Source of the DNA: Candidatus Sulfotelmatobacter sp.
GTDB lineage: Bacteria; Eisenbacteria; RBG-16-71-46
Direction: 5' to 3'
NCBI GenBank assembly: GCA_035498555.1
Contig: DATKAB010000018.1
Span: forward strand, 1-43,068
Length of the DNA stretch: 43,068 nt
Shown here piece after piece: positions 25,957-40,254 of this stretch; position 1 is the stretch's first letter, and each line of letters starts with the position of its first letter. A program made the translations under genes and the position numbers. The notes under the pieces were generated by a model. The model had not been told where the DNA came from, searched no databases, and saw only the letters and a program-made list of their open reading frames with translations.

Positions 25957-25986
25957 TTGAGGCGGTGCCTCCCCCTCCAGTAGCTT
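25957..25986 (+). promoter_or_regulatory. Possible promoter ahead of the beta-helix gene
   Basis: TTGAGG (25957-25962), 18 nt, TAGCTT (25981-25986). Both boxes are partial matches. A second candidate is TGCAACC at 25995-26001, which repeats the ECF -35 seen at 2477 but is followed at 16 nt by CGAA instead of CGTC. A small hairpin GCCCGT-TCGC-ACGGGC lies at 26003-26018 in the leader. Confidence 0.22.
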
Positions 25987-26192
25987 GTAGACCTTGCAAC
26001 CTGCCCGTTCGCACGGGCGAATTCGACTCCGACCTTCGAGTTCAGGCGCCTCCCATGAGTCCCAAGCGCTTGGCCCGTCCGCTGATCCGCCGCGGGGGTC
26101 ACATGCGGGCCAGGGCACGGAACGTGCTGTTTCGCAGGTCTCCCGCATCCTGCTACGGACATCCGGACCCGATCGGAGACTCGAGACCGCTG

Positions 26193-28112
26193 ATGCGATC
26201 CTCGCGCCTGACAGCGCTTCTGCTTGCGGCCTCGGCCGGCCTCGGCCTGGCCGCGCCGGCATTCGCCAATACCTACGACGTGAGCCCGGCCGGCACCGGC
26301 AGCGCCTGCACGCCGGGAAGCCCGTGCGCCCTGGCCACCGCCAACGGCCTCGCGCGTGCCGGCGACGTGATCCGGCTCGCGCCCGGCAGCTACTCCGACC
26401 CGACGATTCCCACCGTCGACGGCACCGCCGGCGCGCGCATCACCTACCTCGGCAACCTCGGCGTGCCGGAAGCGGTGCTCATCAACGCCGACATCCAGAT
26501 GAAGCGGAAGTACGTCACGGTGAAGGGCATGAGCTTCGCGAACTCGTTCGAGTTCGACCGTCTGAGCACCACCGCCTGCGCGCAGTTCGACTCGATCGCC
26601 TGGTGCAACGTCTACAACAGCCTCGGGCTCGATCAGGCCAAAGACTGCGTGGCCTACAAAGTCAACGTGACCAGCGGGCTCGGTCGCTTCACCATGGCCA
26701 CGCCGGCCGCGCCTCCTTCGGACTGGACGATTCCGGAGCGAAACGTGGTTCGCCGCTGTACCTTCCAGCTCGGCGGCAACGTGACCGACGGCTATCACGT
26801 GGTGGTGATGCGCGGCGCGCAGAGGTGCCAGATCGACAGCAATCAGGTGTACATCACGCTGTCGCCCAACATCACCGCCGAAATCGACCCGTTCATCGCC
26901 TATTTCATGCAGGGCTGCACGTTCCGCGACAATCGCTGGGAAGTGATGAACAATCACAACGACAATCACCTGTTCCGTTGGCGCGATTCGACCATGTTCA
27001 ATCGTGTCTATCGCGACACCATCATCCTGCGCGGTCACGCGGTTCGCTTCGCGCCCTCGTCGTCGGGCACCTGGGTGGGCAGCACCAACCAGAACTACTT
27101 CGAGGGTCTCTACCTGAAGTGCAGCACCAATCCCTCCGACTACGCGCTCTACTACCAGAACGGAATGCGCGGCGACACGCTCCGTAACTGCGTGGTGATC
27201 GACAGCCTGGCCAAGGCGCTCACCTGCGGTCAGGTCGAGAAGTTCGCCTCGTTGATCGACCACTGCACGTTCGTGGGCAACTCCGCCTCGGGCGTGGCCG
27301 AGGTGCTGGCCGGCGTGGATCAATGGGGCGACGAGTGGCCGGCGACCGGCTCGCTGGTGTTCACCAACAACATCCTCTATCAGCTCAATCCCGGCGCTTC
27401 CGGGACCGAGATGGGCATGAACTGGGACTTCAGCAGCACCTCGAACCAGCTCACCAGCAACGGCAACCTCTACTTCCTTCCCGGCCGCGCCTCGAGCCGC
27501 GCGATTCACTGGACCATCAACGGCGGTGGCGGCGGGCAGGTCGCGCCGGGCCCGGGGACGAGCTGGGCCACCACTTTCGGCCGCGACGTGAATTCCTACT
27601 GGGGCACGCCGAAGTTCGTGGACTCGACCTTCACGACCTTCGACGCGCATCCCGCCGCCGGCTCGTTCGCGCTGGCCCGAGCGCTGGACGGCACCGCGAT
27701 CGGCGCACTCCAGCAGGCCGGTCCCGACGGCACGCCGCCGGCGACCATCGGCAATCTCGACGCGAGCGCCGTCTACGACAAGATCGTCACGCTGAGCTGG
27801 ACCGCTCCGGGCGACGATGGCAGCGTCGGAATCGCCTCCGGCTATGATCTTCGATATTCGACCGCGCCAATCAACGCCGCCAACTTCTCGAGCGCCACGC
27901 CGGTCTCGCCTCAGCCGGTCCCCGCGGCCTCGGGCACCGCGCAGAGCTACGTCGTGTTCGGCCTCACGCCGGGCTCCAACTACTGGTTCGCGATCAAGGC
28001 GCGTGACGACGCGGGCAACTGGTCCGCGCTCAGCAACGTGAAGCAGGTGGTGACCGCCGCCACCGACAGCTCACCGCCGGCCGCGGTGCACGACCTGACG
28101 GCCTCCCCCTAG
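26193..28112 (+). CDS. Secreted beta-helix protein with one fibronectin-III domain, apparently C-terminally shortened
   Basis: 639 residues from the ATG at 26193, chosen because it gives a clean signal peptide (MRSSRLTALLLAASAGLGLA, cleavage after AFA near residue 25); longer in-frame starts exist. Residues about 27-510 are a right-handed beta-helix of the kind found in polysaccharide-degrading or surface proteins (GDVIRLAPGSYSDP, YVTVKGMSFANS, LRNCVVIDSLAKALTCGQ). About 514-627 is a fibronectin-III domain (VTLSWTAPGDDGSVGIASGY, GLTPGSNYWFAIKARDDAGN). The protein ends at PPAAVHDLTASP, which is how the next FnIII repeat normally begins, so further FnIII repeats and a sorting domain seem to be missing. 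No continuation appears in other frames after the TAG. Catalytic residues are not identifiable. Confidence 0.82.
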   Translation: MRSSRLTALLLAASAGLGLAAPAFANTYDVSPAGTGSACTPGSPCALATANGLARAGDVIRLAPGSYSDPTIPTVDGTAGARITYLGNLGVPEAVLINADIQMKRKYVTVKGMSFANSFEFDRLSTTACAQFDSIAWCNVYNSLGLDQAKDCVAYKVNVTSGLGRFTMATPAAPPSDWTIPERNVVRRCTFQLGGNVTDGYHVVVMRGAQRCQIDSNQVYITLSPNITAEIDPFIAYFMQGCTFRDNRWEVMNNHNDNHLFRWRDSTMFNRVYRDTIILRGHAVRFAPSSSGTWVGSTNQNYFEGLYLKCSTNPSDYALYYQNGMRGDTLRNCVVIDSLAKALTCGQVEKFASLIDHCTFVGNSASGVAEVLAGVDQWGDEWPATGSLVFTNNILYQLNPGASGTEMGMNWDFSSTSNQLTSNGNLYFLPGRASSRAIHWTINGGGGGQVAPGPGTSWATTFGRDVNSYWGTPKFVDSTFTTFDAHPAAGSFALARALDGTAIGALQQAGPDGTPPATIGNLDASAVYDKIVTLSWTAPGDDGSVGIASGYDLRYSTAPINAANFSSATPVSPQPVPAASGTAQSYVVFGLTPGSNYWFAIKARDDAGNWSALSNVKQVVTAATDSSPPAAVHDLTASP

Positions 28113-29062: not shown

Positions 29063-30421
29063 CTAGGAGCGCACCGGCTTTCCCGCCCCGCCGCGGCGCG
29101 GACCACCGTTCCCGGGCTCGAAGAACACCACGCGATTCTTGGGCGGGCGCTTGGCTTCGAGCAGTGCCTGGTTCGCGGCGCGCCACAGCTCCTGCGGAGT
29201 CGCGCCATGTTCGGGGAACAGCGCGACCCCGATGCTGACGGTGACGCCCAGCTCGTGGTGGGCGCGATCGAGCGCCTCGACCGCGACCTGCTGCCGCTCG
29301 ACCAGCGCACGGAGTCGCTCGGACACCGCCCCGGCGTCGTGAGCCGACACCGGCGAGGTGAGGAGCAGCGCGAATTCCTCGCCGCCCCAGCGCGAGACCG
29401 TGTCGAACGGGCGGACGCCGCTGCGCAGCGACTGGGCCACCGTGATCAGCACCTGATTGCCGGCCTCGTAGCCGAATCGCGTGTTGAACAGCTTGAAATC
29501 GTCGATGTCCACGAGGCACAGGGCGAGAGAGGCGTTCTCGCGCTGCGCGCGCGCCATCTCGTTCTGGAGCTGAAGGTCGAAATAGGGCCGGTTGTAGACC
29601 CCGGTCAGGGGATCCACGAACACCAGCTGCTCGAGCCGCGTGGCGCGCTCGAGCGCCGCCCCGAACGAATCGGCGAGCAGGACCACCAGCGCCAGCGCTC
29701 CCTCGTCGAAGGCCAGCGGGGCGCGAGTGGTGACCTCGAGGTGGCCGGCCGGCGGGCCCGGACCCACGGTCACCGCGAGCGCCACGAATGAGCCGACGCC
29801 GTTCCGCTCCCCGCTGGCCGCGAGGCGGGACGAACGCGACAGGTCGGGGGCGTGAATCAGTACGTGCGGTTCGCTCAGCGCGAGCGCGGCGACCTCCGCG
29901 TCGAACGGCGTCGGCGCGAGCGACGCCTCGCCGCCCGGTCGGGGCACGAATCGCACCCGCGCCGCTCCCAGCAGTTCGCGCCCGGTCTGCTCGAGGTGTT
30001 CGCGCAGCAGATCACGCACGGCGACCGAGCGCGGATCGTGATGGAGCGCGGGGTCGTCGAGTCTCAGCAGGCGCCGGACCTGTTCGATGCCGGCCGGTGC
30101 GCGGGAGGGAAGACTCAGGCGGGGGATCCGCCGGATCCCATCCTGCTCCTCGGGAGCCGCCACATGGATGGTGAAGACGCGCAGCGAATCGCGCGCCTCG
30201 TAGCGGAGCACCGGGCCCAGACCGTTGGGACTCGCCGGAACGCGCACCAGCGCGCCGGACTCTTCCAGGCGCCGCAGGGCGAGAAGCGCCGCCTGTTCGA
30301 TCTGCTGACCCACGCCCGACAGCAGGGCCGACTGCACCGACCGTCGCTCGGCGGGCGGCAGCTCGTCGAGGGGGAGCAGCCGCTCGAGCAGCTGCCGAAA
30401 ATCGATTGTCTGCTGGTTCAC
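29063..30421 (-). CDS. GGDEF diguanylate cyclase with N-terminal GAF-like region
   Basis: 452 residues from the GTG at 30421, where the recognisable helical start (MNQQTIDFRQLLERLLPLDE) begins; the frame is open further upstream but that part is non-protein-like. Residues 1-275 include a helical leader and probably a divergent GAF-like sensor (VGSFVALAVTVGPGPPAGHL, LALVVLLADSFGAALERATR). The GGDEF domain begins at LVFVDPLTGVYNRPYFDLQL; the active-site signature is GGEEF at 346-350, and an RPFD inhibitory site (RxxD) lies five residues before it at 337-340, so it should be an active, product-inhibited cyclase making c-di-GMP from two GTP. No transmembrane segment is apparent, so it is cytosolic. 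No EAL or PilZ protein is visible nearby. Confidence 0.92.
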   Translation of the reverse strand: MNQQTIDFRQLLERLLPLDELPPAERRSVQSALLSGVGQQIEQAALLALRRLEESGALVRVPASPNGLGPVLRYEARDSLRVFTIHVAAPEEQDGIRRIPRLSLPSRAPAGIEQVRRLLRLDDPALHHDPRSVAVRDLLREHLEQTGRELLGAARVRFVPRPGGEASLAPTPFDAEVAALALSEPHVLIHAPDLSRSSRLAASGERNGVGSFVALAVTVGPGPPAGHLEVTTRAPLAFDEGALALVVLLADSFGAALERATRLEQLVFVDPLTGVYNRPYFDLQLQNEMARAQRENASLALCLVDIDDFKLFNTRFGYEAGNQVLITVAQSLRSGVRPFDTVSRWGGEEFALLLTSPVSAHDAGAVSERLRALVERQQVAVEALDRAHHELGVTVSIGVALFPEHGATPQELWRAANQALLEAKRPPKNRVVFFEPGNGGPRRGGAGKPVRS

Positions 30422-30722
30422 GAGGCTTCCGTGCCTCCCAGCGTCGGGGGATTTCCCATGTCCGGGGACCTCGGGTCGGGGGAGCTGAGTGCACGATGCA
30501 GGGTCGATACCCTGGTTCGGACAAAGACAGTTTAGCACGGGAATCCGGCGAGCCGGCCGGGAAATCACCATTGGCCTGCGGAAATAGGCCGGCGTGAGAA
30601 CCCGAGAAGCCGCCGCTGGCACTCGACGCGCCCGCTCCGCCGTCGCTTGACCGGACTGCGGTCGGTCTTTACGTTCCAGGTTCTTTGGGTCCCGCACCGC
30701 CAGAACTCTGGAAGACCACCCG
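30422..30722. other. Divergent intergenic region, GGDEF gene and ptsN-like gene
   Basis: These 301 bases hold the plus-strand promoter at 30647-30675. There is also an AT-richer patch with GACAAAGACAGTTTAGCAC near 30520, where a minus-strand promoter for the GGDEF gene could lie, and a short inverted repeat GGCCT...AGGCC at about 30573-30590. I see no gene: open frames through it lack ribosome sites and protein-like composition. Confidence 0.45.
30647..30675 (+). promoter_or_regulatory. Sigma70-type promoter for the PtsN-like gene
   Basis: TTGACC (30647-30652) and TACGTT (30670-30675) are 17 nt apart, five of six and three of six consensus bases. The predicted start site would be about 40 nt before the ATG at 30723. 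Confidence 0.5.
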
Positions 30723-31199
30723 ATGAAGCTCTCCGAACTCCTCAATACGCGCGCCATTCGCCTGCGTTTGCAGGCTCGGAACAAGCGCGAGGCGATCGCG
30801 GAGCTGGTGGCCCTGCTGGAGAACGCGCACGGCTGTGACAGTCATGGCGAAATCCTCGATCGGGTCCTTCGCCGCGAGGAGATGATGACCACCGGCATCG
30901 GCTACGGCGTGGCCATTCCGCACGGGAAGGCGCGCAGCGCCGATCACATGATGGCCGCCTGTGCGGTGTCGCCCGAAGGCCTCGATTTCGACGCCGAGGA
31001 TGGGCAGCCGGCCACCCTGTTCGTTCTGTTCGTCTCTCCCGAGCACGCGGCCACGTTGCACGTGAAGGTGCTGGCCAACATCTCGCGACTCCTCAAGGAA
31101 GAATCGGTGCGCAGGAGCCTGCGCGAGGCCCGGAGTCCCGAGGACTTCCTCGCTGCCGTCCAGAATGCCGAGGCGGCATTCATTCCCAGCTCGAGCTGA
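30723..31199 (+). CDS. PTS IIA protein of the fructose/nitrogen (PtsN) type
   Basis: 158 residues, the full length of a PTS_EIIA type-2 domain. The phosphorylated histidine is His67 in GYGVAIPHGKA, and the second conserved His is in ATLHVKVLANIS. As a single-domain IIA without IIB or IIC neighbours it is most likely a regulatory PtsN-like protein that is phosphorylated by NPr and controls ion transport or other pathways, and not part of a sugar importer. No EI or HPr gene is in the window. It precedes, by 71 nt, a set of three divergent complex-I-like membrane genes, raising the possibility that it regulates them; PtsN acts on potassium transport in enterobacteria, so this is plausible but untested. 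Confidence 0.9.
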   Translation: MKLSELLNTRAIRLRLQARNKREAIAELVALLENAHGCDSHGEILDRVLRREEMMTTGIGYGVAIPHGKARSADHMMAACAVSPEGLDFDAEDGQPATLFVLFVSPEHAATLHVKVLANISRLLKEESVRRSLREARSPEDFLAAVQNAEAAFIPSSS

Positions 31200-31270: not shown

Positions 31271-31927
31271 ATGCACTTCCTCGACGCGTGGAGCTCGCTC
31301 TCGCTCCTCGATCAGCTCCGACTGATCGCGCCCGCCGCGCTGATGGTCGCCGCCATCCTGCTTCCCGGCCGGCGCGCCGCGATCGCCGTGGCGTTCGCGC
31401 TCGCGATCGCGGTGCCGGTGAGCGACGCCGCCGGCGAAGGCTGGGCCACCAACCTCGGCTGGGGATTGCTGTGGGCGGGCGTTGGTCTGGTGCTGGTGCG
31501 CGGATCGGGCTCGGGCATGCGCCGTCCGGTTGAAGGGGCCGGTGGATTCGAGTCCTCGGTGATCGGGCTGATGCTCGGGATTCCGTTCTGCGCGCTGCTC
31601 ACGCTGGCGATCGCGCGGCAGGATCTCTCGAGCGGGTTGACGCGCACCGCCACCATCGGCGTCCTCTACCTCACGCTCGGGCTCATCCATCTGATGGTGC
31701 GCCGCCACGTGCTGCGCTCGGCGCTCGGCTGGGGCTTCGTGGGCTTCGGGCTCCAGGTGCTCGAGGGCGCGGTGCGCGCCACGCTGCCGCCGGCGCTGGC
31801 GCCGCCCTCGGGGGTCGCGCTGCTCGCGACCTTCGTCACCCTCGCGCTGGTGCTCCGGCTGGGTCTCGCTCGAGCGCGCTGGGTGGGCAGCGCGTGGCTG
31901 AGTGACGCGCACGATCTTCACGACTGA
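31271..31927 (+). CDS. Membrane protein with NuoK-like C-terminal half
   Basis: 218 residues with six or so hydrophobic segments and GGGAGG 6 nt before the ATG. The C-terminal half reads TIGVLYLTLGLIHLMVRRHV, LRSALGWGFVGFGLQVLEGA and GVALLATFVTLALVLRLGLA. It follows the plan of NuoK/MnhC: helix 1, then an RRN-like turn (here RRH), a helix with a conserved acidic residue (here Glu in VLEGA), and a last helix followed by Arg. The N-terminal 90 residues (two or three more helices) are extra relative to NuoK (about 100 residues). It is the first of three adjoining genes whose products resemble antiporter or complex-I membrane subunits. Similarity is weak, so the homology call is tentative; that it is an integral membrane protein is secure. 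Confidence 0.62.
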   Translation: MHFLDAWSSLSLLDQLRLIAPAALMVAAILLPGRRAAIAVAFALAIAVPVSDAAGEGWATNLGWGLLWAGVGLVLVRGSGSGMRRPVEGAGGFESSVIGLMLGIPFCALLTLAIARQDLSSGLTRTATIGVLYLTLGLIHLMVRRHVLRSALGWGFVGFGLQVLEGAVRATLPPALAPPSGVALLATFVTLALVLRLGLARARWVGSAWLSDAHDLHD

Positions 31928-31928
31928 C

Positions 31929-33239
31929 ATGTTTCGACTGCCGCTCCGACCCACGCTTCCGACCCTCGCGGGCGTGCTGTGCGGGCTCGGCTTCGCGCTG
32001 CTGGTGGTGCGCAATCTGCTGGCCGGCGCGCTCGGTCTGGAGTGCCTGTGGGCGGCGTTCTGGCTCGCGGCGCGCGCGTCGGCCGATCCGGATCGTCAGA
32101 TGCGGCGCTGGGAATGGCTGCGGCGCCCGGCCACGGCGCTGTGGCTCGCGGTGGCGGCCCGCGCGATCGAGCGCGCGGTGCTTCGCGATGGCATCGCGCC
32201 CGAATCCTGGGCGCTGGCGCTGGTGCGAGGTACCGCGCAGGTCGCCGTGTTCTGGGCCGGGCTCGACCTGCTCGGCGCGCTGCCCGGCGCACGCACCTTT
32301 TCGGATCGCAGCGGACCGCTCGCCGGCGGTGCCTTCCGCATGCCGGCGTTGCTCCCGGCGGCCGGCGCGTTGATCTTCCTGCGCCAGTCGCAGCCGCGAC
32401 CGCTGCTCAGCACCGGCGTGGACTGGGCGCAGGCCGTGCTGCTCGTCGCCGCCCTGATCGCGGTGCTGCGCGCCTTCGGACGCAGCTCGTGGCGGCGCTG
32501 CCTGCGCTGGCTGGTGGTGGCCGAATGCGCGCTGGCCGCCGAGCTGGCCGCGGTCGGCACCCTGCATCCGAATCTCGTGCTCGCCCTGTGGCTCGGGGCG
32601 GGCGGGGGCCTCGCGGTGTGGCTGGTGGCGGAGCACCGCGGCGCCGCGCTGCGACGCGATCCGCGTCAGATCCACCTGTGGCGGCTGGCCGGCTGGGTCA
32701 GCACCACCGCCCTGGTCTGGCCGCTCCTGGTCGCGTACGTGCACGGCGTTTCGCGGCAGCCGGTGATGGCGGCCGGCGTGTCGCTGGTGGCGGGCTTCGT
32801 CGCCTGGCTGATGGTGAGGCGCCCGCAAATGGCGCCCGAGCGGCGCTCGATGCCGCGGCTCGCGACGCGTGCTCCGTACACGTTCCTCGCCGCGCTGCTC
32901 ACGCTCGCGATCGGTCCGGCGACGCTGGCCTTCGCCTGGCGACTCGGATACCGCACCACGCTGCTCGCGGCCGCGACGGCGCTCGCGCCCGCCGTGCTCG
33001 GCGGGCTGCTCGCGCTGGTCCATCGCGTGCCGGCGCCGCGCACCGCAGCGCGCGCGGTGGCCCACGGACTCTTTCACACCGTGGCCCGGGGCGAGCACCA
33101 GCTGGTGGTGCGGGGCACGGGAATCGGGCGCCTGCTCGCCGGCCCGCTGCGCGATCTTCACACCGGAGACGCGCAGGAATACCTGTTGTTCCTGGTCGGG
33201 CTCAGCGTGCTCATGCTGCTGGTGCCCATCCTGCAATGA
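31929..33239 (+). CDS. Multi-helix membrane protein, divergent NuoL/M- or Mrp-antiporter-like
   Basis: 436 residues from the ATG one base past the previous stop; a GTG at 31902 overlapping the previous gene is an alternative start. About twelve hydrophobic helices are present. Parts match the NuoL/M/MrpA plan: ALLPAAGALIFLRQSQPRPL is where the HAATMVxAGVFLLxR helix is expected; WAQAVLLVAALIAVLRAFGR and SSWRRCLRWLVVAECALAAE fit the helix followed by the KRxLAYS turn; the end EYLLFLVGLSVLMLLVPILQ is like the NuoL C-terminus. The pumping lysines and glutamate of true NuoL cannot be found in the expected helices, so it may be a non-pumping scaffold or use other residues. The stop overlaps the next start (ATGA). 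Confidence 0.6.
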   Translation: MFRLPLRPTLPTLAGVLCGLGFALLVVRNLLAGALGLECLWAAFWLAARASADPDRQMRRWEWLRRPATALWLAVAARAIERAVLRDGIAPESWALALVRGTAQVAVFWAGLDLLGALPGARTFSDRSGPLAGGAFRMPALLPAAGALIFLRQSQPRPLLSTGVDWAQAVLLVAALIAVLRAFGRSSWRRCLRWLVVAECALAAELAAVGTLHPNLVLALWLGAGGGLAVWLVAEHRGAALRRDPRQIHLWRLAGWVSTTALVWPLLVAYVHGVSRQPVMAAGVSLVAGFVAWLMVRRPQMAPERRSMPRLATRAPYTFLAALLTLAIGPATLAFAWRLGYRTTLLAAATALAPAVLGGLLALVHRVPAPRTAARAVAHGLFHTVARGEHQLVVRGTGIGRLLAGPLRDLHTGDAQEYLLFLVGLSVLMLLVPILQ

Positions 33240-34429
33240 TCCCGCTGGCATTGGCCGCCGCGCTCGCCGGGCTTTCGGGCGCGCTCATCCTGCCGCTCGA
33301 GCCGCGCCACGGCGGCGGTTACTCGATCGCCGGGAGAGCCTTCATGCTGGCGCCGCTGGTGCTGACGTTCTCGAGCGTGTTCGCGTCGCCGGCGCTGGCC
33401 GCGCTCACGGTGGCGCTGGCGATCGCGCTGCTCGCACGCCGCGCGCACGACGCGTTTCACACCGAATGCGCGCTCAAGGTGCTGTGGGTCGCGGGCGCGG
33501 CCCTGGCGCTCTCGGCCGCGGGCTGCGCACTGATGTCGGCGCTCACCAGCACCACCGCCCCGCGCGAGCAATGGGCCGTGCTCGGACTCGAGCTGGAACC
33601 CAGCACTCTGTGGCGGACGGCGCTGCCGCTCACGTTGATCGTCGGCCTGGTGCTGCTCGGCGCGGCGCCCTTCCACTTCTGGCCCTCCGACGTGCTGCAG
33701 GGCGCGTTCCCGGCGCTGGCGCCGCTGGCGGTGGTCGCGCTGCAGGTGGCGGGCGCGGGCTGGCTCTCGTGGCGGCTCGAGGGCGTACACGCGTGTCCGG
33801 CCGCCGCCGAGCAAAGCGCGCACGTGCTGGAATCCGTCGCCTCGATCGGGTTCGTGGCCGGGGCCGCCACGCTGCTGGTGCAGCGCGAGCCCGAGCGGCG
33901 AGTGGGCGCCCTCGCCGGACTGAACGGGGCCCTGCTGCTCGCGGCGCTGTCGGCGGGCCAGCGCCTGTCGGATTCGGCGCTCGCGTCCCAGCCCGACGCG
34001 ATCGCGGCATGGGCGGCCCATCTCGCTCTCGCGCTGACCGGCGCCGGCATCCTCTCGCGCTTCACTCCGGCCGCCACGCCCGAGGCGCAGACGGCGGCCG
34101 TGCTGTTTCGCCGGCATCCGTGGAGCGCCGCGGCCGGACTCTACGCGCAGCTCTCGCTGGCCGGTGCACCCGGCACGCCGGGCTCGCTGGTGTGGTTCAT
34201 GGTGGCGCGCGACGTGGTGCGGTCTTCGCCGCTGTGGCTGGTGATCGCGCTCGGTCTCGCGTGGCTCGCCGCGTTCGCGACCGTCGTACGGCATACGGTG
34301 GCCGCCTGCGGCGTGCGCACCACTCAGCCCCCGCCCGAAGCCCCGGTGCCCTTCTCGGCCCGCGCCGCGCTGTGGGTCTGCGGACTCACGCTGGCGGCGG
34401 ATTTCGCCGGACGCATGCTCTGGCGCTGA
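33236..34429 (+). CDS. Divergent NuoN/MrpD-like membrane subunit
   Basis: 397 residues, roughly eleven helices, joined to the previous gene by ATGA. It shows the best of the three matches to complex-I/antiporter subunits: GAAPFHFWPSDVLQGAFPAL corresponds to the GxxPFHxWxPDVYxGAP signature; LLVQREPERRVGALAGLNGA stands for the KRMLAYSSI region; LSLAGAPGTPGSLVWFMVA equals the SLxGIPPTxGFxxKF helix. The lysine that normally precedes PFHFW is replaced (VLLGAAPFHFW), and the lysine of the following helix is Gln (VALQVAGAG). True NuoN is about 480 residues; this one is shorter at the N-terminus. It probably forms a membrane complex with the two upstream proteins. The soluble partner, if any, is not in view. 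Confidence 0.68.
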   Translation: MIPLALAAALAGLSGALILPLEPRHGGGYSIAGRAFMLAPLVLTFSSVFASPALAALTVALAIALLARRAHDAFHTECALKVLWVAGAALALSAAGCALMSALTSTTAPREQWAVLGLELEPSTLWRTALPLTLIVGLVLLGAAPFHFWPSDVLQGAFPALAPLAVVALQVAGAGWLSWRLEGVHACPAAAEQSAHVLESVASIGFVAGAATLLVQREPERRVGALAGLNGALLLAALSAGQRLSDSALASQPDAIAAWAAHLALALTGAGILSRFTPAATPEAQTAAVLFRRHPWSAAAGLYAQLSLAGAPGTPGSLVWFMVARDVVRSSPLWLVIALGLAWLAAFATVVRHTVAACGVRTTQPPPEAPVPFSARAALWVCGLTLAADFAGRMLWR

Positions 34430-34441
34430 GGAATCGACTCG

Positions 34442-35305
34442 TTGATCTATCCCCTCGCACGTCGGGCGGTCCACGCGTGGCGCCGGGCGCGCCTTGCGCG
34501 GCTGGGCAATGAGCCGGCGTGGCGGCGGGTCGGTGAGGGTCTCGAAATGGAGATCGACCCCGCCGACGTGATGGATCAGGCGTTCTACCTCGGCACCTAC
34601 GATCCCTGGCTGCTGCAGGTGATGCGCGACGTCGTGGGTGAGGGCGATCACGCGCTCGATCTCGGCGCGCACAAGGGCTACGTCACGCTACGAATGGCGA
34701 AGCGGGTGGGCCCGGCGGGCCGCGTCTTCGCTTTCGAGCCGGACCCGCGCGCGCGTGAACATCTCGAAGCCCACGTCCGTCGCAATCGCCTCGGTCAGGT
34801 CACGTGCTACCCGTACGCGCTCGGACGAGAGGCGGGGAATCTGGAGCTGTCGCTGTCGTCGCAGCTCGGCTGGTCGAGTTTCTTCCCCAACGAGATGGCG
34901 CGCCCGGCGGTCACCGGGCGGATCACGGTGCCGGTGCGCAGCGTGGACGGCCTTCGCGCCGACGGCACGCTCGCGATCGATCCGGCGCGGCTCAGCTTCG
35001 TCAAGATCGACACCGAGGGCGCCGAGTTGCAGGTGCTCGAGGGGATGCGCGATCTGCTGGCGGCGAGCCGCCCGACAATCTGGCTCGAAGTCAATCGGGG
35101 CTCGCTGGCGGCGGCCGGCGCGCGTCCCGCGGCGATCGCCGATCTGCTGCACGGTCTCGGATTCGCGCTCTTCGTTCCACATCGCGGACGCCGGCTCGGA
35201 CTCCCGCGCGTCTCGATGCTGATGGCGCGCGATCTCGAGCAGCAGCCGGAGTCGGTGTTCGACGTGGTTGCCAGCCGGGACCGCCCGCGCCTCGCGGTGG
35301 GCTGA
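34442..35305 (+). CDS. FkbM-family methyltransferase
   Basis: 287 residues from a TTG at 34442 with GAGGAA about 10 nt upstream; an internal ATG at 34549 would remove a plausible N-terminal helix. The FkbM signatures are clear: HALDLGAHKGYVTLRMAKRV for SAM binding, VFAFEPDPRAREHLEAHVRR, and FVKIDTEGAELQVLEGM. FkbM proteins methylate hydroxyl groups, commonly on sugars of surface glycans or on antibiotics. The adjoining flippase and glycosyltransferase point to a cell-surface polysaccharide. It follows the NuoN-like gene by 12 nt and may be cotranscribed with it. Confidence 0.9.
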   Translation: MIYPLARRAVHAWRRARLARLGNEPAWRRVGEGLEMEIDPADVMDQAFYLGTYDPWLLQVMRDVVGEGDHALDLGAHKGYVTLRMAKRVGPAGRVFAFEPDPRAREHLEAHVRRNRLGQVTCYPYALGREAGNLELSLSSQLGWSSFFPNEMARPAVTGRITVPVRSVDGLRADGTLAIDPARLSFVKIDTEGAELQVLEGMRDLLAASRPTIWLEVNRGSLAAAGARPAAIADLLHGLGFALFVPHRGRRLGLPRVSMLMARDLEQQPESVFDVVASRDRPRLAVG

Positions 35306-35314
35306 ATCGTCGGA

Positions 35315-35323
35315 TGCTATATT
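35315..35323 (+). promoter_or_regulatory. Extended -10 promoter ahead of the leader ORF and flippase
   Basis: TGCTATATT is a TGn-TATATT extended -10, rare in this GC-rich sequence. Its predicted start site is at about 35330, next to the ATG of a 17-codon leader ORF. No clear -35 is visible, which is acceptable for an extended -10. Confidence 0.5.
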
Positions 35324-35331
35324 GCGGCGCA

Positions 35332-35385
35332 ATGCATCGCGTGTCCCCGCTGGAACCCCTCTCCGACATCTTGCTCGCTGAATGA
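35332..35385 (+). CDS. 17-codon leader ORF coupled to the flippase gene
   Basis: ATG at 35332 opens MHRVSPLEPLSDILLAE and stops with TGA at 35383-35385, sharing ATGA with the flippase start at 35382. The ATG lies 8 nt after the extended -10, so the transcript would be leaderless or nearly so. The flippase has no good Shine-Dalgarno of its own (the preceding bases are CATCTTGCTCGCTGA), so its translation may depend on ribosomes finishing this leader. There is no homology to judge by; the peptide could simply be the vehicle for coupling. Confidence 0.4.
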   Translation: MHRVSPLEPLSDILLAE

Positions 35386-36842
35386 ACCTGGCCGCTCCCC
35401 CCGTCCGCAGCTTCGCTCGCGGGACGGTCAGCCGCGACGCCGCCTGGTCGCTGGCGTACAGCGCCGTCGTGCGGCTCGCCACGTTGGCCGCCTCGGTCGT
35501 GTTGGCGCGAATGATCGGCCCGTCCGGCACCGGGGCGTTCGGAGTGGCGCTCCAGGTGACGGCACTGGGCAGCATGCTGGCGACGTTCAATCTCCCGCAG
35601 AGCCTGTCACGCCATCTGGCGTCGACAGAAGATCCGGCGCGCCGCCATCGCCTGCTGCGCACCTCGGGCTGGCTGCTGCTCGGACTCTCGACCCTCACCG
35701 GAACCGCGCTGATGGCGCTCTCGAGCTGGCTCGCGCGAAGCGTCTACCACGTTCCCGAGCTGGCGCCGGTGCTGTTCTGGTGCGGGCCGCTGGTGATCGC
35801 GACCTCGGCCACTTCGTGGGTCGAGGGAGCGCTTCAGGGGCTGCGCCGATTTTCGTCGCTCACGCTCTGGGGCGTGCTGGTCTCGGTGCTCGACCTCACG
35901 CTGGGATCGCTGGCCGCGGCGTTCGGCGTGGTGTGGGTGCTGGTCAGTCGTTCGATGATCCGCGCGCTGGCGGCGGCGGGCGCGGTGGCGCGCTGGTTCC
36001 GTGGCGCGCCCGCCGGCACGAGCCCCGGCACCTTCGCCTCGACCGCAGCGCCGCTGCTCGGCTTCGCGGGTCCCACCCTGCTCGCGACCGCGACCGTGCT
36101 CGCCACGCAGACCGTGCTGCGCCTGCTGCTGGTGCGGAGCTCGGCGCTGGTGGCCGCGGGGCAATATCAGGCCGCCGACAGCATCGCCCAGGGACTGAGT
36201 CTCATTCCGACCGCCGCTTCGATCGCGTTCATGCGATCGGTGGCGATGGGCGCGGAGGCCGGCTACCCCGGACTCGCGGTGTCGTTGCGGCGCGGGCTCG
36301 AGCGGCTGGCGGGCTCCAATCTGCCGCTGTGTCTGCTGCTCATGGGCGTGTTGCCGTGGGCCACCGTCGCGCTGTTCGGTCACGAGTTCACCCGCTCGCG
36401 TCCGGTGCTGGTGCTGCTTTCCGCGTCCTACGGATTGCAGGGTCCGTCGGCTTTGTTTGGCGCCGCCATCCTCGGACGCGGCGAGGTGTGGACCGGGGCG
36501 TTCCTCAATCTGATGTGGGCCGGCGTGGTGCTCGGGGCGTTCACGCTCGCCGGGGCGCCGCTCGGTGCGGTGGGCGCGGCGATCGCGATGCTGTCCGGCT
36601 ATTTCGTGCTGCTGGTGGTGTGTGCTCTGGCGCTGGCCCCGCGCTGGTCGGTTCCGCTGAAGAGCCTGGCCCCCGCGATCCTGGCGACGGTCGGCAGCCT
36701 TGCGCTCGGCTGCTCGCTGGCGCTGACCCCCGGAGTTCCGCCGCTGGTGACGGCCCTGGTGTGCGTGGCGCTCGCCGGCGCGGTTGCGGTCCGCTGGGGT
36801 CTGCCCGCGATTTCGTCCGCCGCTCGAGGCGCCGGTGACTGA
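35382..36842 (+). CDS. Polysaccharide flippase (Wzx/MATE-like, MVF superfamily)
   Basis: 486 residues with about fourteen hydrophobic helices, the size and layout of lipid-linked oligosaccharide flippases. The N-terminal pattern SRDAAWSLAYSAVVRLATLA, then VVLARMIGPSGTGAFGVALQ, is the usual first two helices of the Polysacc_synt family. It would move undecaprenol-linked repeat units across the inner membrane. Its stop overlaps the start of the glycosyltransferase by 8 nt, so they are in one operon. Translation probably depends on the upstream leader ORF. No polymerase (Wzy) or priming transferase is seen in the window. Confidence 0.88.
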   Translation: MNLAAPPVRSFARGTVSRDAAWSLAYSAVVRLATLAASVVLARMIGPSGTGAFGVALQVTALGSMLATFNLPQSLSRHLASTEDPARRHRLLRTSGWLLLGLSTLTGTALMALSSWLARSVYHVPELAPVLFWCGPLVIATSATSWVEGALQGLRRFSSLTLWGVLVSVLDLTLGSLAAAFGVVWVLVSRSMIRALAAAGAVARWFRGAPAGTSPGTFASTAAPLLGFAGPTLLATATVLATQTVLRLLLVRSSALVAAGQYQAADSIAQGLSLIPTAASIAFMRSVAMGAEAGYPGLAVSLRRGLERLAGSNLPLCLLLMGVLPWATVALFGHEFTRSRPVLVLLSASYGLQGPSALFGAAILGRGEVWTGAFLNLMWAGVVLGAFTLAGAPLGAVGAAIAMLSGYFVLLVVCALALAPRWSVPLKSLAPAILATVGSLALGCSLALTPGVPPLVTALVCVALAGAVAVRWGLPAISSAARGAGD

Positions 36843-38058
36843 GCGCGTCGCCACGTCCTCCCCGACGACCGTGGCGCGCCGCGTCATCCTCGTCACCGAG
36901 CAGGTGCGCCCGGGCGGCAAGCGCTCGCATGTCGAAACCCTGCGAGACGGGCTGCGCGAGATCGGCTGGGACGCCACGATCGTCGACTGGGCCCGGCTCT
37001 CATGGCTCGAACGCGCGTGGGTCGCGGGCCCGCTGCGCGTACTCGATCGCTTCGAGCCCGCGCTGGGGCATCGTTGGATGATTCCGGCCTTCAACCGGCG
37101 AGTCGCGATACGCGTGCGGCGCGAGCGCAACCGCGGCGCCGGGCCCGGCGTGATCCACGTTCAGGAGGCCGGGAGCTACGCGGCCGCTCGGGGCGGCGCC
37201 GGCGGCTGGCCGGTGGTGCTGACCGTTCACGGCCCCTGGCATCGCGAGATCGCCATGGTCACCGGGCTCGCTCTCGAGCACCCCACCATCCGCTACCTGC
37301 GCGACCTCGAGGGGGTCGCGTTTCGCGAGGCGGATGCGGTGATTGCGGTGGACCGCGCGCACGCCGAGTACGTGCGCTCGTTCGGCCGCTCGGACCGGAT
37401 GTGGGTCATCACCAACTTCGTCGACACCCAGGTGTTCAACGATCGAATCCCCGCGGCGCCGTTTCCCGATCCGGTCGAGCGCTGGATCGCGGGTCGTCCG
37501 GTGGTGTTCTGCCCGCGCCGCTTGACGCCGAAGAACGGTGTGCCCACCGCGGTCCGGGCGATGACGCTGCTCAAGGAACGGGGGACACGTTGTGCGCTGG
37601 TGGTGGCCGGCTACGGGCCGCAGCGCGACGAGATCGAGCGGCTGATTCGCGAGCTGGGGGTCGCCGATTGCGTCTGGCTGCTGGGTGCGGTGGCGCCGGG
37701 GCAGATGCCGGCCTGGTTCCGGCGCGCCGCTCTGTCGGTGGTGCCGTCGGTGTCGATCGTGGGCGTCGAGGAAGCCACCTCGATCGCGGCGCTCGAGGGC
37801 CAGGCGTGCGGTCGTCCGGTGGTGGCCTCGGCGCTGGGCGGATTGCGCGAGATCATCGAGGATGGCGAGACCGGCCTGCTGGTGCCGCCCGGGGAGCCGG
37901 CGCCGCTCGCCGACGCGATCGAGCGCGTGCTGAGAGACGCCGACCTCGCCGAGCGGCTGTCGCGCTCCGGCGCCGCGGCGATCCGCGATCGTCGCTCGCA
38001 TGTCGCGGCGGCCCGCGAGTACGCCGCGATCTACGACCAGGTGCTCGGCTCGGCCTGA
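36835..38058 (+). CDS. GT4-family glycosyltransferase
   Basis: 407 residues from the GTG at 36835 (MTERVATSS), overlapping the flippase stop by 8 nt. It has the GT-B fold of family GT4: an N-terminal Rossmann half (RRVILVTEQVRPGGKRSHVE, VVLTVHGPWHREIAM) and a C-terminal half with PVVFCPRRLTPKNGVPTAVR, the nucleotide-sugar motif EEATSIAALEGQACGRPVVA (the E-x7-E pair), and GGLREIIEDGETGLLVPPGE. It would transfer a sugar with retention to a lipid-linked acceptor at the cytosolic face. Donor and acceptor cannot be read. It ends at a two-way terminator, so the polysaccharide genes to the left form a closed block. Confidence 0.93.
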   Translation: MTERVATSSPTTVARRVILVTEQVRPGGKRSHVETLRDGLREIGWDATIVDWARLSWLERAWVAGPLRVLDRFEPALGHRWMIPAFNRRVAIRVRRERNRGAGPGVIHVQEAGSYAAARGGAGGWPVVLTVHGPWHREIAMVTGLALEHPTIRYLRDLEGVAFREADAVIAVDRAHAEYVRSFGRSDRMWVITNFVDTQVFNDRIPAAPFPDPVERWIAGRPVVFCPRRLTPKNGVPTAVRAMTLLKERGTRCALVVAGYGPQRDEIERLIRELGVADCVWLLGAVAPGQMPAWFRRAALSVVPSVSIVGVEEATSIAALEGQACGRPVVASALGGLREIIEDGETGLLVPPGEPAPLADAIERVLRDADLAERLSRSGAAAIRDRRSHVAAAREYAAIYDQVLGSA

Positions 38059-38106: not shown

Positions 38107-40254
38107 CTAGAACCGCTCGCCCAGATTGAAATCGAGCCGGAACTCGCTTCGGTCGTCGATGCCCCAGTCGAGATCGAGCGGGCCGAACGGCACGGCGAGC
38201 TCGAGCCCCGCGCCTCCGGCGAAGTGAAGCTGGCCGTCGAGATCGGGGCGCGAGACCGATTGTGTGATCAGTCCGGTCTGTCCGTACGCGAACACCCGTC
38301 CGATGGAAGTGAAACCGTGGAGCAGCCGCAGCTCCCCGGCGACGCGATCGTGCCCGAGCCACTCGTCGCGGCGGAGTCCGGCGAATGAATCCGGCCCGCC
38401 CAGCGCCTGCAGCTCGTCGGGCGGGGTGAATTTCGAGGAGCTGCCGGCTCGGGCCGACGCGCGCACCGTGATCGGGCCGGCGCGGACCTGGGCGCTCGCG
38501 CGCGCCAGGATCGAAGCGTAGGACTCGTTACCCGCGAGGAACACCGCCTGCACGCCCTCGTTGAACGCGCTGCCCGACTGAATGCTCACCGAGGTGAGCA
38601 GGCCGGAGAGGTCACGCGCGTCGGTTCCGGCGAAGCCGTACCCGGCCCCGGCCAGCAGCAGGTAGCCGTGCGGGAGCTCCTTCTGCCCGCCGGCCATCCC
38701 TTCGAAGCGCTGCACGCGCGATTCGTGAATGCTCCGTTCCTCGTCGAACAGGCGGACATCGGTCTCTCGCCAGCCGCCGCGCAGGAACCAGCCATCGCTG
38801 GCGCGCGCGAGCGAATGGGGCTCGAAGGCGAAGAACGCGTTCTTCCGCAGCGGATCGAGAGTGGCGCCGAGCAGGATTTTGTCCGGCAGTCGGCGATTCA
38901 ACGGCCGCAGCACCAGCGTGCCATTCATGCGGCCGCGGACGTCGTTGTCGTAGCCGAAGGCGAGGGTCAGCTCGCTGGCCGGCCGCGATTCGACGTGCAT
39001 GGAGATCGTAGTGGAGTCGTTGACGACCGAAAACGATGGCCAGGCGCTCACGAACATGTCGCCGCGGTAAACGTCCTCGACGGCGGACCGCAGCGCCCCG
39101 GGCTCGAACGGAGCCCGGGGTGCCTCCCCGAACAGACGCGCCGCCACGTCGGCGCGCGGGGACTCGTTTCCGTGGCGGTCCAGCCACCGCACGCCGGGCC
39201 TCGCCGGTGGCAGGATCACCGCGACGCTGTCACCCGGCGTTGCGTCGGGTGCGCTTCGGACCAGCTTCGCGAACTCGCGGATCTCCTCGCGGGCCTCGCG
39301 GTAGCCGCGCTCGATCAGGCTGTCGCAGGCGGTGAAGTCCATCGGCCCGTAGCCGGGCAGCCTGAGCCACACCAGGCGATCCTGCTTCGACAGCGTGTCC
39401 TGCTGGCTGCGCTTGTTGAGTCGGTCGAAGATCGAGAACGACACCTCGACCAGCGAGCTGCGATCGCTGAGATTGACCGGCGGCAACGACACATCCACCG
39501 CGAGAATGTGGTCGGGCGAAAGCGTTCGCGCGGTGCTGACCGGCAGATTGCTGGCGAGCCCGCCGTCCACCAGCAGGGTGTTGCTGTCGGGCACCGCCGG
39601 GAACAGCGGCGGGATGCTGATCGAGGCGCGCACCGCCCGGGCGACGCTGCCGGCGCCAAACACGATCGGATTGGTGGTCTCGGCGTCGGTGCCCACACAC
39701 CGGAACGGAATCGGCAACCGATCGAAGTCACCCCGCGCGATTCCTTCGGCGCGCAGGAAATATTCAGCCAGCATGAAATTGAGATAGGTGTCGTCGACCA
39801 CGCCCGAGGGCAGATGGAGCTGCAGCCCCTCGCCGATCAGGGCCAGCCACGGCTGCGGCACGATCGTGTCGCGCCACTCGAAGCGCTCGCGCTGGTTTCC
39901 GAACACTGCGTCCCAGTCGGTGTGCCGCACCATTTCGCCGATCTGGCTGCTGGAGTAGCCGGTGGCGTAGAGCGCGCCGATCAAGGCGCCCATGCTGGTG
40001 CCGCAGACCAGGCCGGGCCGGATGCCCTCTTCCTCGAGCGCCCGCAGCACGCCGATGTGGGCGAGGCCGCGCGCCGCGCCGCCCGACAGCACCAGCGCCC
40101 ATTGCGGATGCGGCGGCTGAGTCGGCGGGAGCGCGAGTTTCGCTGACGAGCTGGAGTCGGGCCGCGAAGCCTGCGCCCATGCGGCCGATGCCGACAGCGC
40201 CATCGCCGCGGCGATGAGCATTGGAACCCGGACGATGCGGGTGCAAGCCAGCAT
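38107..40254 (-). CDS. Patatin-like phospholipase with C-terminal outer-membrane barrel (PlpD-like, type Vd)
   Basis: 715 residues. A signal peptide (VPMLIAAAMALSASAAWAQA) leads into a patatin domain: the oxyanion loop GGAARGLAHIGVLRALEEEG, nucleophile Ser87 in CGTSMGALIG, and Asp230 in LLVDGGLASNLPV complete the Ser-Asp dyad. After about residue 330 a POTRA-like segment precedes a 16-strand-type barrel of the Omp85/BamA superfamily, which ends in RLDFNLGERF with a terminal Phe. Known proteins of this plan (PlpD) are type Vd autotransporters in which the barrel exports the attached lipase. The gene is third in a minus-strand operon after an ABC exporter and a PorV-like barrel (41 nt gap). It may act in outer-membrane lipid turnover or as a secreted lipase. 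Confidence 0.92.
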   Translation of the reverse strand: MLACTRIVRVPMLIAAAMALSASAAWAQASRPDSSSSAKLALPPTQPPHPQWALVLSGGAARGLAHIGVLRALEEEGIRPGLVCGTSMGALIGALYATGYSSSQIGEMVRHTDWDAVFGNQRERFEWRDTIVPQPWLALIGEGLQLHLPSGVVDDTYLNFMLAEYFLRAEGIARGDFDRLPIPFRCVGTDAETTNPIVFGAGSVARAVRASISIPPLFPAVPDSNTLLVDGGLASNLPVSTARTLSPDHILAVDVSLPPVNLSDRSSLVEVSFSIFDRLNKRSQQDTLSKQDRLVWLRLPGYGPMDFTACDSLIERGYREAREEIREFAKLVRSAPDATPGDSVAVILPPARPGVRWLDRHGNESPRADVAARLFGEAPRAPFEPGALRSAVEDVYRGDMFVSAWPSFSVVNDSTTISMHVESRPASELTLAFGYDNDVRGRMNGTLVLRPLNRRLPDKILLGATLDPLRKNAFFAFEPHSLARASDGWFLRGGWRETDVRLFDEERSIHESRVQRFEGMAGGQKELPHGYLLLAGAGYGFAGTDARDLSGLLTSVSIQSGSAFNEGVQAVFLAGNESYASILARASAQVRAGPITVRASARAGSSSKFTPPDELQALGGPDSFAGLRRDEWLGHDRVAGELRLLHGFTSIGRVFAYGQTGLITQSVSRPDLDGQLHFAGGAGLELAVPFGPLDLDWGIDDRSEFRLDFNLGERF

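Follow-up and report, generated by a model that had tools for sequence, protein, structure and literature searches.

What does a cell make of genes for relatives of the antiporter-like subunits of respiratory complex I when the lysines expected of proton pumping are missing from them? The question is raised by three adjacent genes, orf1, orf2 and orf3, in a stretch of 43,068 nucleotides (contig DATKAB010000018.1 of assembly GCA_035498555.1; the window) from Candidatus Sulfotelmatobacter sp. An earlier reading made from the letters of the window (the sequence-only reading) had described a module of highly divergent NuoK-, NuoL- and NuoN-like proteins and had proposed a new reduced antiporter or ion-coupled complex. 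The best-supported reading of the analyses described here, which are sequence comparisons and structural models, is that the genes may encode a small L-N-K assembly (orf2, orf3 and orf1, respectively) that would not pump by the lysine mechanism.

The identification of orf3 as a NuoN homologue was well supported by sequence comparison and by predicted fold. A profile of its orthologues matched Mycobacterium smegmatis NuoN among the sequences of the PDB (E 5.3e-10), and the NCBIfam NuoN model matched orf3 itself with E 4.4e-12 at 45.7 bits, the cut-off being 332.6 bits. Comparison of hidden Markov models with hhalign gave a probability of 96.7% for the phylum's own NuoN and, second, 83.5% for HyfF. 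The AlphaFold2 model of orf3 (predicted local distance difference test score, pLDDT, 89.0; predicted template modelling score, pTM, 0.90) retrieved NuoN chains as the best Foldseek matches (E 3.4e-10, TM-score 0.76-0.78). In this model transmembrane helices TM7 (123-141/148-156) and TM12 (295-308/315-330) were both broken, the feature for which the sequence-only reading had proposed that structural models be inspected. The motifs that it had noted in the third protein, PFHFWPSDV and SLAGAPGTPGS, were located at residues 145-153 and 307-317, and its assignment of this protein to NuoN was borne out at both levels. Nor was there a better match to an unrelated transporter family; the best fold matches of the orf2 and orf3 models were complex I subunits. 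In orf3, ~80-120 residues of the NuoN N-terminus are missing, and in a tree with NuoL, NuoM, NuoN, HyfF and HyfB the orf3 sequences grouped as a single clade with full support and a long branch.

Residues of orf3 were placed in correspondence with NuoN by alignment to the source genome's own NuoN, in E. coli NuoN numbering, and the roles of the NuoN residues were taken from published work (PMC3046159, PMC13073174). The TM5 glutamate E133 corresponded to A56 (A, P, L or T among orthologues), at which the TM5 register is uncertain by about one residue, the flanking columns being without an acidic residue. The TM7 lysine K217 was replaced by L140 (L or M among orthologues), the TM8 lysine K247 by Q170 (Q in 17 orthologues and P in one) and the TM12 lysine K395 by W320 (W in 18/18). 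No orf3 orthologue covering any of these four sites had glutamate or lysine there. The replacement of the lysines before PFHFW and in the next helix, as first noticed from the letters, was thus confirmed as L140 and Q170, and the loss was found to extend to the TM12 lysine and the TM5 glutamate. Other positions were kept: E154 as E77 and K158 as K81 (each in 17/17 sequences covering the site), and H224 as H147 (17/18). In addition, W259, H262, W320 and R325, which the model places in TM11 and TM12, were invariant in 18/18 orthologues. The canonical NuoN proteins of the phylum retained E133, E154, K158, K217, H224 and K247 in 9/9 cases. As judged from alignment and model, selection appears to have kept the fold and the structural positions of this NuoN-like subunit and to have removed its classical proton relay.

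The site-by-site test of lysines covers orf3; the orf1 and orf2 proteins of the window contain no lysine, and K81 is the sole lysine of the three (1 in 1051 residues). Canonical NuoL, NuoM and NuoN of the source genome have 6-11 each, and a flippase encoded in the neighbourhood has 1 in 486 residues. Because neighbouring proteins are likewise lysine-poor, the low lysine content is partly a matter of codon bias and was rejected as a striking trait of the module.

For orf2 the NuoL-like character was supported at the level of fold, by one AlphaFold2 model of moderate confidence made without templates (pLDDT 77.5, pTM 0.79). All 13 of the 13 PDB matches that this model found at E<=0.001 were NuoL/ND5 chains, the best with E 2.5e-5. 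The C-terminal region carries a ~38-residue helix that was amphipathic in 15/15 orthologues and is followed by a transmembrane helix, and the tail at the junction of the two reads R-x2-HTG-x4-Y; the phylum's full-length NuoL proteins that have the motif carry R-x2-QTG-x4-Y in the corresponding position close to the C-terminal end. The lateral helix of complex I spans nearly the entire membrane domain (PMC3274701). A 38-residue helix would measure ~57 Angstrom, about half of that, and by geometry would therefore fit the crossing of one antiporter-like subunit, not two, in a part of the protein where the model is weak. Links from sequence to NuoL, NuoM, HyfB or Mrp were tried with hhalign and discarded, since nothing significant was obtained (0.4% probability for NuoL), so that the membership of orf2 in the NuoL group is argued from fold and tail motif. 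The claim that the second protein follows a NuoL plan therefore stood in these two respects and failed as to sequence similarity.

The assignment of orf1 to NuoK was suggestive. Across an alignment of 12 orthologues (36-45% identity), matches to the NuoK family PF00420 were obtained in three, with E 0.015-0.026 and all at about residues 130-205; the best score was 15.5 bits against a curated cut-off of 26.1. The NuoK plan claimed for the first protein was thus recovered as a weak family signal, below the curated cut-off. At site 162, a candidate for the transmembrane glutamate, Q, E and D occurred in 5, 6 and 1 orthologues, and no TM3 glutamate was seen. The C-terminus, DAHxLxD, was strongly conserved. 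A match to PsbZ/Ycf9 (E 0.03-0.08) occurred in a single orthologue and was set aside.

The three genes are tightly coupled, orf1 and orf2 being separated by 1 nt and orf2 and orf3 overlapping by 4 nt, and they follow a PtsN-like gene, all as the sequence-only reading had it. Its statement that no dehydrogenase, hydrogenase or DabA-like subunit is present also held. Within the three-gene module there was no dehydrogenase or hydrogenase gene, the operon has no quinone/NADH module and no NuoH, and a profile search for DabA (PF10070) found none in the source genome and was positive in only 1 of 19 genomes searched. This single DabA gene, from a genome in which the module occurs as well (G004; L160, contig C155), is followed by one or more PF00361 proteins. 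In the source genome, a 3.8-Mb draft, PF00361 is represented by NuoLMN and a Hyf-like pair; the module does not amount to a full mrpABCDEFG set. The canonical NuoLMN are encoded on another contig and the Hyf-like pair on a third, and the module is therefore additional to a canonical and complete complex I.

Within one family of Candidatus Eisenbacteria, 19 of 20 genomes carried all three genes in single copy, and the genome without any of them (G019) is 79% complete. Orthologues of orf3 were present in 18 of the 19 other family genomes searched, at about 44-53% identity; those of orf2 shared 38-45% and those of orf1 36-45%. The 27 genomes that represented other families of the phylum yielded no orthologues; two marginal matches there (orf2, E 3.5e-4; orf1, E 8.7e-4) were confined to portions of long, different open frames. 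A scan of 84,980 species genomes with two short orf3 peptide patterns, by which diverged relatives may be missed, gave matches in Eisenbacteria only. Gene order and tight spacing were constant in every family genome whose contig spans the genes, and in the closest pair the ratio of nonsynonymous to synonymous substitution rates (dN/dS) was 0.02 for orf3 and 0.08 for orf2, indicating purifying selection. From this family-wide conservation, the constant order and the low dN/dS, orf1-orf3 are read as functional genes, on comparative grounds, and the module as more than a chance grouping. Two orf2 copies were interrupted, one by an in-frame TGA (G009; L041 9062-10414) and one by a frameshift (G008; L040 6143-7363), each a draft-assembly error or a recent lesion.

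In the reading that we prefer, orf1, orf2 and orf3 would form a small, dehydrogenase-free L-N-K complex in which the NuoL-like orf2 would span one neighbouring antiporter-like subunit, not two, by means of its shortened lateral helix. The complex would do without lysine-relay proton translocation. It would be a stand-alone membrane assembly whose ion path is rewired or passive and which perhaps tunes the flux of K+, Na+ or H+, and its own activity or amount would be tuned by the possibly co-transcribed PtsN protein. To this explanation as a whole we assign a probability of roughly 40%; its first part, on what the module is, is probable, and the function proposed is a guess. Of the earlier proposal of a new reduced antiporter or ion-coupled complex, the reduced complex is retained and the antiporter is not, as the residues that carry transport in its relatives are gone.

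Regulation by PtsN was considered separately. Unphosphorylated PtsN of E. coli binds and inhibits the K+/H+ antiporter YcgO (PMC11808508), and by this analogy control of an ion-handling complex by PtsN would be plausible. HPr is present, and a role of PtsN as a co-transcribed regulator of the module is possible. The gene ptsN adjoined orf1 in 17/17 family genomes in which the contig permits the test. Taken by itself and argued from analogy, an ion-handling role under PtsN influence is doubtful; it also overlaps with a rewired transporter, considered below.

Several observations weigh against the L-N-K reading. The identity of orf1 depends on matches below threshold. For orf2 no significant sequence match was found in Pfam, NCBIfam or the PDB, and its moderately confident model falls partly below a pLDDT of 50 in the last two helices. 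In E. coli, NuoN variants E133A and K217A retain most proton pumping (PMC13073174), and the loss of a single residue is therefore not proof of an inert subunit. Finally, G020, a genome from another family of the same order, has the arrangement GGDEF-ptsN-TPR gene-hisS-aspS with no module there, and in G009 the order is GGDEF-ptsN-orf1-orf2-orf3-hisS-aspS, with the module between ptsN and hisS.

From the arrangements in G020 and G009, the module most likely entered a pre-existing locus. The GGDEF gene is present in most relatives and in G020, and it and ptsN are neighbours inherited from that older locus; because G020 has the same locus without the module, the ptsN linkage is partly inherited. 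The survey that the sequence-only reading had proposed, of whether the PtsN-like gene is always adjacent, came out positive for every testable genome, but the linkage is older than the module. The only conserved downstream partner that emerged was hisS-aspS, in three genomes, and it was dismissed as housekeeping genes of the ancestral locus. That ptsN stayed adjacent while hisS-aspS remained behind the module in only these three genomes hints at co-regulation.

The alternative that survives best is that the module is an active secondary transporter or ion-gated channel that would still move ions or protons, by a new axis in place of the lysine chain. Such an axis would be built from other invariant residues, the candidates being K81, H147, Q170, H262 and R325 of orf3, E94 and H140 of orf1, and R181 and E235 of orf2. 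The invariance of W259, H262, W320 and R325 and the retention of E77 and K81 speak for it, as does the low dN/dS, which shows selection on something, and there is a precedent of the DabB type, in which a NuoL-like protein was re-used with altered residues (PMC13144422). However, arginine and tryptophan dominate among the residues in question, beyond H262 no new deep ionisable residue was noticed in orf3, and this high-GC genome favours arginine over lysine in general. We consider this alternative unlikely.

The same pattern of conservation, with structural positions kept and pumping positions gone, would also be expected of a scaffold that transports nothing and acts in the membrane as a platform or sensor for PtsN or for a soluble partner encoded elsewhere. 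Docking sites could be offered by two strongly conserved motifs, AHxLxD at the orf1 C-terminus and LHTGDAQEY in orf2, and the NuoL-like protein of DAB complexes does bear a soluble enzyme (PMC13144422). Yet the conserved partner genes are only ptsN and the GGDEF gene, both older than the module, and DabA is absent from the source genome. A scaffold therefore appears rather improbable.

That the three proteins are accessory or alternative membrane-arm subunits, joining the cell's complex I or a Hyf/Ehr-like complex, would explain why every recognisable subunit type belongs to the membrane arm. The source genome has potential hosts in its canonical NuoLMN and its Hyf-like complex, and the Hyf-like operon, too, has a gene for an EIIA-domain protein ahead of it. 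In no genome examined, however, did the module lie close to nuo or hyf genes, and the short N-terminus of orf3 and the divergence of orf2 would probably suit standard interfaces badly. One genome (G003, 96% complete) has the module together with only three PF00361 proteins, all of them on a single nuo-type contig, and no Hyf-like pair; because of it, docking on the Hyf-like complex was disfavoured. This explanation has little in its favour overall. The view that the genes are decaying relics of a former complex, suggested by lost catalytic residues, shortened subunits and the interrupted orf2 copies of G009 and G008, is hardly credible, given intact single copies in nearly all family genomes, the dN/dS values above, many invariant residues at 36-53% identity, and the nature of both interruptions as single events in draft metagenome assemblies.

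Features of the module and its immediate surroundings, with positions in the window.
Feature	Position	Strand	Description
orf1	31271..31927	+	Membrane protein of 218 residues, of which the last ~90 weakly resemble NuoK/HyfE; motif DAHxLxD conserved at the C-terminus
orf2	31929..33239	+	436-residue membrane protein, NuoL/ND5-like by predicted fold
orf2 C-terminus	33039..33239	+	Short amphipathic helix (371-408) and last transmembrane helix with LHTGDAQEYLLF; from orthologue alignment and AlphaFold2 model
orf3	33236..34429	+	397-residue NuoN homologue; shortened N-terminus, NuoN pumping residues replaced
orf3 residues 77-81, ECALK	33464..33478	+	Kept counterparts of NuoN E154 and K158
orf3 residues 145-156, PFHFWPSDVLQG	33668..33703	+	TM7a/TM7b break; H147 = NuoN H224, D152 invariant
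orf3 residues 307-321, SLAGAPGTPGSLVWF	34154..34198	+	TM12 break; W320 at the place of NuoN K395
PtsN/EIIA-Ntr-like gene, IPHGK site	30723..31199	+	PF00359, E 1e-32; upstream of orf1
GGDEF diguanylate cyclase gene	29063..30784	-	PF00990, E 1.2e-41; divergently upstream; true start inside the open frame

Directly 3' of orf3 (34442-38058) lie genes for an FkbM methyltransferase, a flippase-like protein and a GT4 glycosyltransferase, which are not kept behind the module in relatives. Farther out, inspection by eye identified a long open frame of secreted type whose C-terminal region is fibronectin-like (25965-28112, + strand) and a patatin-like outer-membrane protein (38107-40254, - strand). Elsewhere in the source genome (L053 2708-10727, contig C64), a Hyf/FHL-4-like operon is preceded by a gene for a protein with helix-turn-helix and EIIA domains; the NuoD-like large subunit of the operon (PF00346) appeared by eye to be without NiFe-binding CxxC motifs (Ehr-like). 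In about seven genomes of the family, EIIA genes occur near Hyf-like genes on the same contig.

The mechanism by which the antiporter-like subunits of complex I translocate protons is still a matter of debate, and a natural assembly that keeps the fold and the broken helices but lacks residues regarded as essential amounts to a natural experiment on the capacities of the fold. The apparent scaling of lateral helix length with the number of subunits crossed would be a testable rule of assembly, and if PtsN controls the complex, then EIIA-Ntr control of cation transporters would reach this superfamily. No earlier description of such a module was found in the open-access literature searched. More tentatively than the reading preferred above, the module may represent a new class of complex derived from the antiporter arm of complex I, an L-N-K core without the glutamate-lysine axis that acquired a new ion path or became a switch in the membrane that responds to PtsN. 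It would have had a single origin, at a fixed locus of one bacterial family.

Among known systems, complex I is resembled in the NuoN sequence, fold, broken TM7 and TM12 and E154/K158/H224 set of orf3, in the NuoL fold, lateral-helix-like segment and tail motif of orf2, and in the gene order K-L-N, which mirrors nuoK-L-(M)-N. It differs in that the module has no NuoM, H, J, A, B-G or I, that E133, K217, K247 and K395 are replaced in an orf3 of shorter N-terminus and separate long-branch clade, and that the lateral helix of orf2 has ~38 residues. Metazoan ND2, a NuoN-type protein, functions as a part of complex I and retains the central lysines, which orf3 has lost. It is like orf3 in that N-terminal transmembrane helices have been lost, and a few animals also lack the TM5 glutamate (PMC3046159). 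The subunits HyfE, HyfF and HyfB of group-4 hydrogenase-type (Ehr-like) complexes are approached by orf1 in length (218 residues versus 203 in HyfE) and architecture, and by orf3 in its second-best hhalign match; however, the module lacks both a catalytic and a NuoH-like subunit, NuoN is the nearer match of orf3, and Hyf-like genes lie elsewhere in the genome.

The Mrp (Mnh/Sha) Na+/H+ antiporter, with its MrpA-D-C core, is likewise free of a dehydrogenase and has the same subunit types (L-like A, N-like D and K-like C), but the module lacks MrpB, E, F and G as well as the catalytic glutamate and lysine. Single MrpC/D-type sequences from G024, which belongs to a different family in the phylum, matched the module worse than NuoN, single sequences being a less sensitive test; by eye, this genome has an Mrp-type operon with three PF00361 proteins (L166, contig C38, 972-8630). 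In DabAB/MpsAB, too, a NuoL-like protein was freed from redox subunits for a new role, and DabB2 also carries a short lateral helix (PMC13144422). DabB2 keeps the proton-path residues that are missing in orf3, however, and the module has no DabA and combines two antiporter-type subunits with a small one. Like Mrp and DAB, the module consists of antiporter-like subunits detached from redox subunits; it is novel relative to both in its different composition and in the loss of the catalytic residues.

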